A stretch of 64,000 bases of DNA from Streptomyces sp. Edi4 (GTDB lineage Bacteria > Actinomycetota > Actinomycetes > Streptomycetales > Streptomycetaceae): positions 744,001 to 808,000 of the forward strand of contig NZ_JBEJGY010000004.1 of the NCBI RefSeq assembly GCF_040253615.1, given 5' to 3'. The position numbers were made by a program, and so were the translations under genes. Position 1 is the stretch's first letter. Each line of letters starts with the position of its first letter. The notes below the pieces were generated by a model. It had not been told where the DNA came from. It saw nothing but the letters and a program-made list of their open reading frames with translations, and made no database searches. Below, in pieces: positions 44,342 through 49,012 of this stretch.

Positions 44342-45541
44342 CTACTTCAGCCGCACGTGCAACGAGAGCAGGCCGCGGTGGCGGGGGTTGGCCTGCCACC
44401 GCGCCTCGCGCTCCTCGCTCGGGCGCAGGGCCGGATAGCGGGTCAGGATCTGAGTGAAGGCGATCTCCGCCTGGAGCCGGGCGAGCGGGGCACCGAGGCA
44501 GTGGTGGATCCCGTGGCCGAACGCCAGGTGCCTGGCCGCCTCCTCGCGGCGGATGTCGAACCGGTCGGGATCGGGAAAGACACCTGGGTCCCGGTTCGCG
44601 CCGAGCAGTGCTATCTGGACGAACTCGCCCTGCGCCACAGTCTCTTCGGCCACCTCCACGGGTTCGGTGGCGTAACGGAGCGAGGCGAGGCCCGAGGGGG
44701 ACTCGTACCGCAGGATCTCCTCCACCGCGCCGGGCATGAGCGTCATGTCCCGCTGGAGCGCGGCGAGTTGGCCGGGGTGGCTGAGCAGGGTGTGGACGCC
44801 GTTGGCGATCAGGTTGACCGTCGTCTGGTGTCCGGCGATGAACAGGAGGAAGGCCATCGAGGTGAGTTCGTCCTCGCTCAGCGAGTCCTCGCCGCCGTCG
44901 CCGGCCCCGAGCAGCGCCGACAGCAGGCCGTTGTCGGGCCGCTCTCGTTTGAGGGCGATGAGCGCGCGCAGGTAACCGAGCATGGACTCGGCGGTGAACA
45001 CCGACACCTCGCCATCCCCTTGGCCTCCGTCGAGGCTGTTGCCCCGCACCTGAAGCAGCTCGTGGTCGGCGTCACTGGCGCCGAAGAGGGCGAACATGAC
45101 GGCCACCGGCAGGGGCAGGGCGAACTCGCTGATCAGCTCGGCCTCCTCCCGCCCCTCCCACGCGTCCAGGAGATCCGACACATGGCCCTCGATCATCGGG
45201 CGCAGGGCCGCCGTGCGACGCGCCGTGAACACCTGCTGGACGATCCTGCGCAGCCGGGTGTGGTGCGGCGGATCGGAGTTGAGCATGTGCGTGAACAGCG
45301 CGCCGCCGGGGCCCCGGGTGAGCCCGATGTGGCGTCCGAACCGCTCCGCCGCGCCGTCCTTGGAAAGTCTCGGGTCGGCGAGCAGCGCTCTGGCCTGCGC
45401 GTAGGAGGTCACGACCCATCCCTCGACGGCGGCCAGCCCCGGATAGCGGGCCCTGCGCGCCCCGCCCTCCTCGCGCCAGCGCCGGTAGGTGGCATGGGGG
45501 CCATCGAAGAACGAGTCGTCCAGGATCTCCAGGTCAGACAT
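44342..45541 (-). CDS. Cytochrome P450 (second P450 of the RiPP locus)
   Basis: A 399-residue bacterial class I P450. The I-helix reads LLFIAGHQTTVN (AGxxT oxygen-activation motif), EEILRYE gives ExxR, and FGHGIHHCLGAPLAR is the haem-thiolate loop with the Cys. All core features of a working monooxygenase are intact. Its start overlaps the end of the first P450 gene by 8 bp, so the two are translationally coupled. No ferredoxin or reductase gene adjoins it. It may add an oxidation or crosslink beyond those made by the first P450. Confidence 0.9.
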   Translation of the reverse strand: MSDLEILDDSFFDGPHATYRRWREEGGARRARYPGLAAVEGWVVTSYAQARALLADPRLSKDGAAERFGRHIGLTRGPGGALFTHMLNSDPPHHTRLRRIVQQVFTARRTAALRPMIEGHVSDLLDAWEGREEAELISEFALPLPVAVMFALFGASDADHELLQVRGNSLDGGQGDGEVSVFTAESMLGYLRALIALKRERPDNGLLSALLGAGDGGEDSLSEDELTSMAFLLFIAGHQTTVNLIANGVHTLLSHPGQLAALQRDMTLMPGAVEEILRYESPSGLASLRYATEPVEVAEETVAQGEFVQIALLGANRDPGVFPDPDRFDIRREEAARHLAFGHGIHHCLGAPLARLQAEIAFTQILTRYPALRPSEEREARWQANPRHRGLLSLHVRLK

Positions 45542-46604
45542 GACGCACCTTGTTCCGGTGGCCGACGTGGACGGTCTTGACCCCCAGGAGCCCCACCAGC
45601 GGTACGTCGGCGGTGCGTTGGCCCGGGGCGACGACGAGACCGGTCCGCCGGATGTGGTCCAGGAGGAGTTCGGCGAGCGGCATGACCATGTGGCGCCCCC
45701 AGCACCGTTCGGACATGTGCCCGAACGGCAGATAGCCAGGGGTGTCGTCCGGGTCGAGTCCGCCCCAGCGCTCGGGCCGGAACTCGTGCGGCGCGTCCCA
45801 CAGGGCGGGGTCGCGGTGGCTGAGGAGCGGCAGCATGAGGAGGTCGTCGCCGTGCCCTATGCGGGCGTCGATCGCGGGGTATTCGGGCGACCTGTTGCGC
45901 AGCAGGTTCCACGACGGCGGCAGCAGACGCATCGCCTCGTGCAGGATGGCGCTGTTGGAGACGTCGTCGTCGAACGGCGAGCCGAGCCACAGGGCGTTGG
46001 CGACGAGGGTGGAGACGGTGAAACAGACGGGGGCGGCCGCGCGGCGGTAGATGCCCATCGCGTAGCGCCGGTCGTGGTAACTGCCCGCCTCGGCGAACAA
46101 GTTGGCCAGGTGGGTCAGCCGGGGTCCCGGCGCGGGGCGCAGGGGCAGGGCCGCTCCGGCCACGATGGTGGTCCAGGTGAGCCGGGGGTCGATCTCCAGG
46201 GTGCGCGACATCAGCACGCGCAGCCGGAGCGGGTCGTCGCGCAGCACCAGGTCGCGCAGGAACCGGTGCCCGGTGATCGGCCAGGGCCCCGACAGATCGG
46301 TCCGCTCCGGCAGGGGGTCGGGTTGTTCCAGGGCGGCGCGGACGTCCTTGCCGATCGTCCGCATCACCGACGAGGCCTCGGTCTTGGTGATCGACCGGCC
46401 GTGCAACGGCTTGAAGGTGGGCCGTTCGGTCTCCGTCGCCCGCCGCGCACTCAGAATGCGGTCGGAGAGTTCCGCGCCCGCTATGCCGATGGTGTCGGGT
46501 TCAAGGCGGACGAGGTCCTTACCGAGGTGGTCGTCCAACAAGGCTTGCAGACGAGGAGCGAAAACCGTGGTGCGGTTACGGTTGCGCGTTATGACGGATG
46601 GCAT
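45534..46604 (-). CDS. Short atypical cytochrome P450, candidate atropopeptide crosslinking enzyme
   Basis: A 356-residue P450-like protein, shorter than the usual 400. The C-terminal half is clear: HEAMRLLP gives ExxR (about residues 223-226), EFRPERW is the PERF-like motif, and FGHMSERCWG supplies the haem Cys (about 301). The I-helix region reads APVCFTVSTLVAN without the usual acid-Thr pair, so it may be specialised for radical crosslinking. Start at 46604 follows GGAG. It lies 100 bp after the precursor-peptide gene, the gene order of atropopeptide loci in which a single P450 builds the crosslinks between Trp and Tyr residues. Confidence 0.85.
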   Translation of the reverse strand: MPSVITRNRNRTTVFAPRLQALLDDHLGKDLVRLEPDTIGIAGAELSDRILSARRATETERPTFKPLHGRSITKTEASSVMRTIGKDVRAALEQPDPLPERTDLSGPWPITGHRFLRDLVLRDDPLRLRVLMSRTLEIDPRLTWTTIVAGAALPLRPAPGPRLTHLANLFAEAGSYHDRRYAMGIYRRAAAPVCFTVSTLVANALWLGSPFDDDVSNSAILHEAMRLLPPSWNLLRNRSPEYPAIDARIGHGDDLLMLPLLSHRDPALWDAPHEFRPERWGGLDPDDTPGYLPFGHMSERCWGRHMVMPLAELLLDHIRRTGLVVAPGQRTADVPLVGLLGVKTVHVGHRNKVRHV

Positions 46605-46633
46605 ACGGAGAGCTCCGAAAAATGAAATGCGGA

Positions 46634-46688
46634 GGGCCCGCACACGCGGCTGACCGAAATTCAGTCGGCCTGCGTTGTGTGCGGGCCC
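46634..46688 (-). terminator. Hairpin between precursor and P450 genes, likely attenuator
   Basis: Perfect 12-base arms (GGGCCCGCACAC at 46634-46645 and GTGTGCGGGCCC at 46677-46688) enclose a 31-nt loop. It starts 16 bp after the precursor stop and ends 29 bp before the P450 start. Partial termination or 3'-end protection would keep precursor mRNA above enzyme mRNA. Confidence 0.75.
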
Positions 46689-46704
46689 AGGATTGGCCTT
46701 CGGC

Positions 46705-46812
46705 TTAGTACCAGAAGTACCAGGCGGCCTGCTTCAGGCTCGGCTCGCTCTTCTTGAGCTGCGGCAGGCTGATCGGACCACGGGCACGCAGGGCAGCAAT
46801 CATCTTCGCCAT
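46705..46812 (-). CDS. Atropopeptide (tryptorubin-type) RiPP precursor peptide
   Basis: A 35-residue peptide, start at 46812 with GAGGAAG 7 bp upstream. The leader is basic and begins MAKMIAALRARGP, continues ISLPQLKKSEPSLKQA, and the C-terminus is the aromatic core AWYFWY directly before TAA. Tryptorubin A, the founder of the atropopeptide family, is the crosslinked hexapeptide AWYIWY; only the fourth residue differs (Phe for Ile). Two P450 genes follow on the same strand. A longer frame to 47004 exists but has no ribosome-binding site and an unrelated N-terminal sequence. Confidence rests on core identity plus P450 context. Confidence 0.92.
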   Translation of the reverse strand: MAKMIAALRARGPISLPQLKKSEPSLKQAAWYFWY

Positions 46813-47123: not shown

Positions 47124-48599
47124 TCACAGCGACAGCTGGGACGCCTCGCTGCTCAGCCTCGGCGCGGGAAGCGCGTGCTGCCCGCGCGACCACGCGGGCG
47201 CCGGCGCGAGCGCACCGCCCCGGGCGACCGAGGTGATGAGCTCCCGCAACTGCTCCACGTAGCGGTGGATGTTCTTGTGGGCGATCGCGGTGTCCGGATA
47301 GCGGATGGCCAGTTGCAGCCCGCCGTGCAGCCGCGTGAACCACGCGCACACCTGGTCCCCGTAGGACACCCGCAGCATGGCGTACGCCCGCTGCTCGGCC
47401 CACTGCCGAGATCCCGGGATGTCCCGCGCGTCGACGAACGAGACGATCGAGTAGAGATCGGGGGAGGTGGGGCGGAAGTCCGAGCCGAGCAGACGCAGCA
47501 CGCGGGCGATCGGCAGGTGCGCCAGGGACTTGTTGGCGCGCAGCGCGGCCCGCACCATCGTCAGCGCGTCGTCGAAGCCCAGCGCCCCGGCGACCGGGAT
47601 CTCGATCGGCGCCCCGCCGACGTACCACCCCACCGAGTCCGCCCAGCGCGACTTGGCCCGGGTGTGCAGCGGGACCACGGTGCGGTAGACCGGGTCGCCG
47701 CCGATGTCGTGGACGATGAGGCTGGTGGCCGCCAGGACCCCGATCTGCCCGCCGCCGTAGGGCCGGCAGTACGCGGAGAACGCGGCGGCGTCGGCGTCGT
47801 CCACCAGCATCTCGTACAGCAGCTTCTGTTCGGGCAGCCGCCCGCCCGGTTCGAGGCCGAGGTCCACCGGGAAGGCGGGCAGCCGGCCGTCGCAGCGGGC
47901 GATGAACTCCCGCCAGCGCGCCACGATGGCGTGGGTGTCGTCGACCTGGTCCGCGCTGGCCCGCTCGATCTCGCAGAAGTCGACATAGCTGCCGACGGGG
48001 GCCACCTCCTGGGCACGCTCCTGGGCGCCCGCCGCGTAGAGCTCGGAGATCTCGGCGGGGATGCGCTGGAGCGAGTACGCGTCGACGTTGCTGTGGTCGA
48101 ACGCCATGTACACGCTGGCGCAGTCGTCCCTGATCACCGCCGTATACAGGAAGTTGGGCCAGCGCAGCGCGTCCGCCACGACGTCGAAGCGGTGCTGGAG
48201 GTGGAGGCTCAGTTCCTGGGCGTCGGGGAAGTCGCCCACCGTCTCCCGGCGCAGCGCCACCGCGTCGGAGGCCGCGGTGAAGCGGCGCATGTCGTCACCG
48301 ACCCAGCGGAAACCGCTGCGCAGCGTCTCGTGGCGCAGGGTCCAGGTGCGCAGCGCCGCTTCGAGCCGGTCGAGGTCGACGGGCCCGGGGACGTCGAACG
48401 CGGCGCCCAGCCACGTGGGCACGAAAAGTCCGTCCTCCCGCACCGAACGGGCCGTGCGGATGTGTGACTCCTGCACGTAGGCGGGGGGGCGGGAGTCGTC
48501 GGGCTGGCTGGTCGCGGCCTCGACCATGACCGGGTCCAGGGTCCATTCCACCAGCCGCCCGGGACGGACCTCGCAGCCGTGAATGTCGGTAATTCGCAC
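47124..48599 (-). CDS. Stand-alone condensation-domain-fold protein
   Basis: A 491-residue protein of the CoA-dependent acyltransferase/NRPS condensation fold. The catalytic motif position reads DHSNVDAYS (compare HHxxxDG): the second His and the Asp are kept, while the first His is Asp and the Gly is Ala. Other fold marks are TLRHETLRSGF near residue 95 and SVGWYVGGAPIEIPV near 350. No adenylation or carrier domain is attached. GTG start at 48599 follows GGAAG. It could acylate the peptide N-terminus, use a tRNA or carrier donor, or belong to a separate locus; same strand and position upstream of the precursor are the only link. Confidence 0.82.
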   Translation of the reverse strand: MRITDIHGCEVRPGRLVEWTLDPVMVEAATSQPDDSRPPAYVQESHIRTARSVREDGLFVPTWLGAAFDVPGPVDLDRLEAALRTWTLRHETLRSGFRWVGDDMRRFTAASDAVALRRETVGDFPDAQELSLHLQHRFDVVADALRWPNFLYTAVIRDDCASVYMAFDHSNVDAYSLQRIPAEISELYAAGAQERAQEVAPVGSYVDFCEIERASADQVDDTHAIVARWREFIARCDGRLPAFPVDLGLEPGGRLPEQKLLYEMLVDDADAAAFSAYCRPYGGGQIGVLAATSLIVHDIGGDPVYRTVVPLHTRAKSRWADSVGWYVGGAPIEIPVAGALGFDDALTMVRAALRANKSLAHLPIARVLRLLGSDFRPTSPDLYSIVSFVDARDIPGSRQWAEQRAYAMLRVSYGDQVCAWFTRLHGGLQLAIRYPDTAIAHKNIHRYVEQLRELITSVARGGALAPAPAWSRGQHALPAPRLSSEASQLSL

Positions 48600-49012
48600 G
48601 GGAGTCTTCCATTCACACGCTGTCGGGGAACACGAACGAGCTGCGGGCCTCACGGGGCCGGCTCCGACCGGGGACACGCGGCTGAACGCCCACGTCCAGC
48701 GGCCGCCGTCCGAGTGCGCGGTCCCCAACGCCCGGGGAAGGGGCTTCCGTTCGGGGTGCCAGGGGGCCGAGGGCGGCATCCGCACACCTCAGCTCAGGAA
48801 ATACGGTCATGCGGTGACCAACGCGCCAAGAGCGCTCTCAGGCACGCGGGACCACCCCAACGAGTCGTGTCCGTCGGGGCATACGTCATCGCGCCCGGCG
48901 CGCGACCCGGCGCGCGCGCCCGCTCAGCGCCGCGCGCGGACAACACCCGGCGCCCCGGCGCGGGGGCGGGCCGGGGCGCGGAAAGCACCGGGTGGGGGCG
49001 GTCGCGTCAGCC
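48600..49012. other. Intergenic region, GC-rich palindromic stretch
   Basis: No gene with supporting codon use. 48806-48820 holds GGTCA-TGCGG-TGACC, an inverted pair that could be an operator for the condensation-fold gene. 48894-48980 is dense in GCGC/CGCG palindromes of unknown role. Confidence 0.35.

Follow-up and report, generated by a model that had tools for sequence, protein, structure and literature searches.

A putative laurentirubin-type atropopeptide cassette with an AWYFWY core in Streptomyces sp. Edi4

Introduction

A very short gene ending in codons for AWYFWY and followed by two P450 genes raises the question of which peptide this part of the Streptomyces sp. Edi4 genome might encode, and what a second P450 would contribute to it. 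We analysed a stretch of 64,000 nucleotides (the window), in which the three genes lie on the minus strand in the order precursor, 100-base gap with a strong hairpin, P450-1 and P450-2 (Table 1). This confirms the gene layout given by the original prediction, including the 35-codon precursor frame, MAKMIAALRARGPISLPQLKKSEPSLKQAAWYFWY, which ends in AWYFWY-TAA; GAGAGGAAG sits 8 bases 5' of its ATG. We consider it probable that positions 44342-46812 form a laurentirubin-type cassette, in which P450-1 would build a bicycle, P450-2 would add a Trp5-Tyr6 ether, and the leader and probably Ala would be trimmed. Among small ribosomal peptides, the products of two-P450 atropopeptide clusters include some of the most densely cross-linked, and this compact three-gene locus offers a Phe4 test of core tolerance for both P450s.

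Table 1. Features of the cassette and its surroundings in the window
Feature	Position	Strand	Description
Precursor gene	46812-46705	minus	35 aa; open reading frame and sequence, profile match, same architecture in relatives
Leader			residues 1-29, PSLK motif at 24-27
Core			AWYFWY, residues 30-35
Hairpin in the precursor to P450-1 gap	46634-46688	minus	perfect 12-bp arms GGGCCCGCACAC / GTGTGCGGGCCC; function putative
P450-1	46604-45534	minus	356 aa from ATG; heme Cys301, ExxR 223-226
P450-2	45541-44342	minus	399 aa; CYP107-like, LauB2-type
Condensation-domain protein (PF00668)	47124-48785	minus	553 aa; just 5' of the precursor

The precursor and the atropopeptide family

Atropopeptides are defined by a P450 of the class encoded beside a precursor, a leader motif of the KSLK type and Trp at core position 2, with RSLK, ESLK, KSRK, KPLK and PSLK accepted besides KSLK (PMC11450843). 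P450-1 belongs among 108 family rows, the core has Trp at its second position, and the leader carries PSLK; as this is one of the accepted forms, the motif does not place the leader outside the definition. PSLK ends two residues before the core, as does KSLK in relatives. The motif occupies residues 17-20 in PMC11450843 against 24-27 here, so the present leader is longer. In the available text, PSLK does not occur in PMC12352619 or PMC13417212, nor does the string WYF in PMC12352619. In biarylitides, according to the abstract of PMC13417212, a gene of 18 bases encodes a precursor of five residues; the present precursor, with 35 residues and a leader, does not resemble it. The NCBIfam profile NF038372 (tryptorubin family precursor) aligned with residues 21-35 at 24.3 bits (E 2.8e-05), below its curated cut-off of 33 bits, the match spanning only model positions 12-26 of 26.

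A scan of genome contigs retrieved 86 P450-1 relatives, of which 80 loci were kept (54-91% identical), and a precursor was found in the DNA 5' of P450-1 in 78 of them. One of the two loci that at first lacked a precursor (L008; related loci carry L numbers) has MAKKIREAIFGARSFKRVAWYHWY about 120-195 bases 5' of P450-1. Its motif, RSFK, is not on the list mandated in the second round of CoreFinder (PMC11450843), so this precursor would escape a finder restricted to the list. Overall, 108 of 110 non-redundant loci, window included, have a small frame with a six-residue Trp2 core just 5' of a related P450. This, together with the NF038372 match, argues that the precursor-P450 set is beyond chance, and membership of the locus in the atropopeptide family is, on sequence grounds, secure. 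The sequence checks proposed with the original prediction of an atropopeptide RiPP locus thus bore it out, precursor and P450-1 both having relatives in the family. Atropopeptides are already described, and the locus is likely a close cousin of laurentirubin.

The family is common, since a P450-1 relative at E <= 1e-60 turned up in 47 of the 392 genomes of a genus sample, the present genome among them. In a plasmid collection 16 records were matched, none across more than 80% of the query. In L135, from the same genus, a P450-1 relative 37-39% identical has no recognised precursor within 1.5 kb and possibly represents another RiPP family.

The weight that the original prediction gave to novelty was too great. 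AWYFWY is neither a rare nor a new core: counting the window, 24 of 108 rows have it (20 of 102 once rows sampled through P450-2 are set aside). One of them is Streptomyces sp. MMG1121 (L078); PMC11450843 names its cluster, and the strain was unavailable to that study. A literature search for AWYFWY or WYFWY returned no atropopeptide paper by title.

The first P450

P450-1 is short and atypical, as had been predicted. An alternative start, GTG at 46643, would lengthen it to 369 aa. It matched Pfam PF00067 at 44.0 bits (cut-off 22.8), with only residues 219-317 recognised, and the PDB sequence matches, among those listed, likewise cover the C-terminal part only (about residues 219-330). Its best NCBIfam match, at 57 bits (cut-off 525), was ApyO, another RiPP P450. 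An AlphaFold2 model built from 51 sequences had a mean pLDDT of 86.7, with a poor heme loop (residues 295-297 below pLDDT 50). In a fold search with this model, the 50 PDB matches listed were all P450s, with TM scores by query length of 0.44-0.58 and an rmsd of at least 7. Cys301, E223 and R226 are invariant across the 108 aligned rows. These partial Pfam and PDB matches and loose fold matches, combined with the invariant residues, indicate a true but divergent short P450, whose place in the atropopeptide P450 family is secure. It is the single such P450 in this genome, seven further matches being 27-34% identical and restricted to the C-terminal part (from about residue 218).

A quick tree built from 108 P450-1 rows groups the window with L001-L007, L009, L042, L090, L091 and L138, a clade of 13 with PSLK leaders (SH-aLRT 100). 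An intact P450-2 is present in 11 of the 13 members; in L090 and L091 it was not found within the flank of about 1.5 kb. Against L001-L006, dN/dS is low for both P450s, at 0.11-0.15 for P450-1 and 0.19-0.26 for P450-2.

The second P450 and the extent of the cassette

The start of P450-2 overlaps the end of P450-1 by 8 bases. P450-2 matched PF00067 at 106.6 bits (cut-off 22.8), and its nearest PDB relatives include TamI, PikC and EryF. It is 61% identical to Streptomyces laurentii P0069, and P450-1 is 71% identical to S. laurentii P0201; each of these lies on a contig of 23510 bases, as would be expected of the lau cluster pair, judged by equal contig size. The likeness to LauB2 is suggested by this identity of about 61% and by position. 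Relatives of P450-2 at E <= 1e-120 were found in 13 of 394 genomes of the family (own included). All 13 lie directly 3' of a P450-1, and a precursor was recognised in 12; at the 13th locus (L140), both P450s were matched in pieces only and the short flank showed no recognisable precursor. Close P450-2 relatives therefore look devoted to the atropopeptide pathway. P450-2 places the locus in a two-P450, laurentirubin-like subtype, a point absent from the original prediction. According to PMC11450843, lau is, with two cited exceptions, the sole characterised cluster with an extra P450 that modifies the peptide further.

L140 itself is apparently a decayed copy. In L070 and L071 (Kutzneria and Nocardia), a P450-2-like gene is encoded 5' of P450-1 on the other strand; its identity is 58% and 52% in two pieces in the former and 41% in the latter.

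The order precursor, P450-1, P450-2 is kept amid other neighbours in L007, L009, L042 and L078, and we therefore regard these three genes as the unit. The condensation-domain gene was rejected as a cluster member, since only L001-L005 have a relative close to the cassette. Its distance varies there, so that it is probably a syntenic neighbour; with tblastn, a relative was found in none of L006-L080 (about 5 kb per side for most).

Among known systems, the tryptorubin A cluster shares the precursor architecture and P450 family with the locus, with only one P450 as against two here. The core of tryptorubin A is AWYIWY, with Ile4 where the window core has Phe4. Streptomyces sp. CB01201 (L001), Streptomyces sp. 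WM6378 (L002) and S. xanthochromogenes JCM 4612 (L005) have the same core and a PSLK leader, with P450-1 90-91% and P450-2 80-81% identical to those of the window; the leaders of L001 and L005 are shorter, and in all three the common upstream neighbour gene is farther from the cassette. MMG1121 has the same core and three-gene order (P450-1 72%, P450-2 62%), whereas its leader has KSLK instead of PSLK and it belongs to another clade of the P450-1 tree. The lau cluster of S. laurentii (LauA, LauB1, LauB2; laurentirubin B) likewise combines a precursor, an atropopeptide P450 and a second P450 (PMC11450843). Its core is (A)WYIWY rather than AWYFWY, and the product here is predicted.

The proposed product

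We propose that P450-1 cross-links the AWYFWY core into a tryptorubin-like bicycle, with the PSLK segment of the leader acting as docking anchor, and that P450-2 then likely adds the Trp5-Tyr6 aryl ether. Host peptidases, encoded elsewhere, would remove the leader and probably the N-terminal Ala. This scheme, including which bonds form and in what order, the anchor and the trimming, is modelled on what has been published for the lau, sva and tryptorubin systems. In PMC11450843, tryptorubin B was obtained from LauA plus LauB1, and LauB2 was credited with the Trp-Tyr aryl ether found in laurentirubin B. In the same study, three bonds go with a loss of 4 H in varsorubin B1, and four with 6 H in laurentirubin B.

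The predicted product is thus a Phe4 analogue of laurentirubin. The expected [M+H]+ after P450-1 alone is 860.3402 (WYFWY minus 4 H) or 931.3774 (AWYFWY minus 4 H), and after both P450s 858.3246 (WYFWY minus 6 H) or 929.3617 (AWYFWY minus 6 H); the scheme reproduces the published 824.3402 of laurentirubin B. One P450 can yield different bridge patterns on one core, as in the varsorubins (PMC11450843), and the lau core has Ile4 where this one has Phe4, so the bonds could differ. The Phe4 core is common to other strains, and the bond pattern suggested here is carried over from the published clusters.

Phe4 and alternative roles for the second P450

A different fourth modification by P450-2, such as a bond to Phe4, another C-C or C-N bond or a hydroxylation, in place of the ether, would agree with the presence of the hydroxylating P450s PikC and EryF among its nearest solved relatives. 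It would also agree with the co-occurrence of Phe4 and P450-2. Among 102 rows sampled through P450-1, 16 have both, 4 have Phe4 only, 5 have P450-2 only and 77 have neither (Fisher p 4e-11, odds ratio 62), a count that leaves out six rows drawn through P450-2 and scores L070 and L071, with their opposite-strand gene, as lacking P450-2. However, a tree-aware test found only five pairs that are independent and lie on well supported branches (sign test, median p 0.5) and seven in the reverse direction (median p also 0.5). Joint selection of Phe4 with P450-2 is accordingly not supported, independent pairs giving no significance in either direction, and the link, which may be mere shared descent given so few pairs, is treated as such for now. 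P450-2 also accompanies Ile4 or Val4 cores (L007, L009, L011, L012, L032, L144 and L148), and in the lau precedent, with its Ile4 core, the modification is the ether (PMC11450843). We regard a modification other than the ether as unlikely.

The 24 AWYFWY rows comprise 20 with an intact P450-2, two with a partial one (L023, L111) and two in whose stretches none was found (L033, L091). Phe4 is therefore nearly confined to branches that have, or once had, the second P450. In L023 and L111, the partial gene lies 3' of P450-1 behind an AWYFWY precursor (96 and 139 aa aligned), and the second P450 has apparently been lost. Such loci, in which the AWYFWY precursor is kept beside a fragment, a partial gene or no trace of P450-2, would be consistent with P450-1 alone working in the cluster and P450-2 being a passenger or active elsewhere. 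The overlap of P450-2 with the end of P450-1, its low dN/dS and the consistent placement of its close relatives beside P450-1 make this improbable. Least probable is that the locus is silent or does not function, or that an AWYFWY frame stands by chance next to unrelated P450s; this would suit the NF038372 score below cut-off and a locus known here from sequence alone, but not the recurrence of the precursor-P450 arrangement across the non-redundant loci or a core that is unchanged, at DNA level too, in the six closest loci at a P450-1 dS of 0.38-0.53.

The hairpin between precursor and P450-1

Attenuating hairpins often follow RiPP precursor genes. For each locus the search began at the precursor stop and ended 30 bases beyond the estimated start of P450-1; stretches of 30-260 bases were available for 106 of 108 loci (L077 and L090 fell outside the set). 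A perfect inverted repeat of at least 9 was present in 71 of these 106 loci, which are related and do not count as 106 independent cases. Dinucleotide shuffling, done 20 times per locus, gave such a repeat in 9.7% of cases, and 424 coding slices contained one in 9.2%. Set against equal-length slices 5' of the precursor, the figures were 70 of 105 for the gap and 8 of 105 for the slices. The 70 stems sort into 20 groups that have no 8-mer in common, so hairpins recur with different sequences.

Across 12 of the 13 members of the PSLK clade, which give 11 distinct rows, pairing holds in 96.2% of stem cells. Two of the 12 pairs are altered on both sides, which was matched by 39 of 500 shuffles, and there are three such cells (5 of 500). 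The covariation score of 0.088 was matched by 29 of 500 shuffles, a control slid by +2 gave 0.091, and with further pair types the figure was 198 of 500; as some controls come close, the covariation signal is modest.

A classical terminator was rejected, with a T-run following the stem in only 13 of 70 loci and a pattern scan finding one terminator-like site against 1.2 expected. Rfam returned no family at threshold for this hairpin. With so few T-runs, an effect on RNA processing or stability is an option alongside partial termination. The hairpin may set enzyme dosage, keeping P450 expression below that of the precursor, and this is the least certain step of the proposed pathway. The main text of PMC11450843 is silent on hairpin, terminator, stem-loop, intergenic and inverted repeat. 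In that study, adding a ribosome site before svaB raised the yield about 100-fold, which would fit low native P450 expression, and the gap hairpin would offer a testable reason for this gain.

More tentatively, and with more doubt than belief, we suggest that atropopeptide clusters share a hidden switch, a strong gap hairpin, rebuilt from unrelated sequence in different clades, that throttles the P450 (many precursors, few enzymes), and that Phe4 co-evolved with the second P450 for a more rigid laurentirubin-like product. The hairpin and the pairing of Phe4 with P450-2 are the parts that deserve a bench test. At positions 46606-46617 (minus strand), of which the second half is not conserved in all close relatives, the sequence CGGAGCTCTCCG at the ribosome site of P450-1 could fold on itself.
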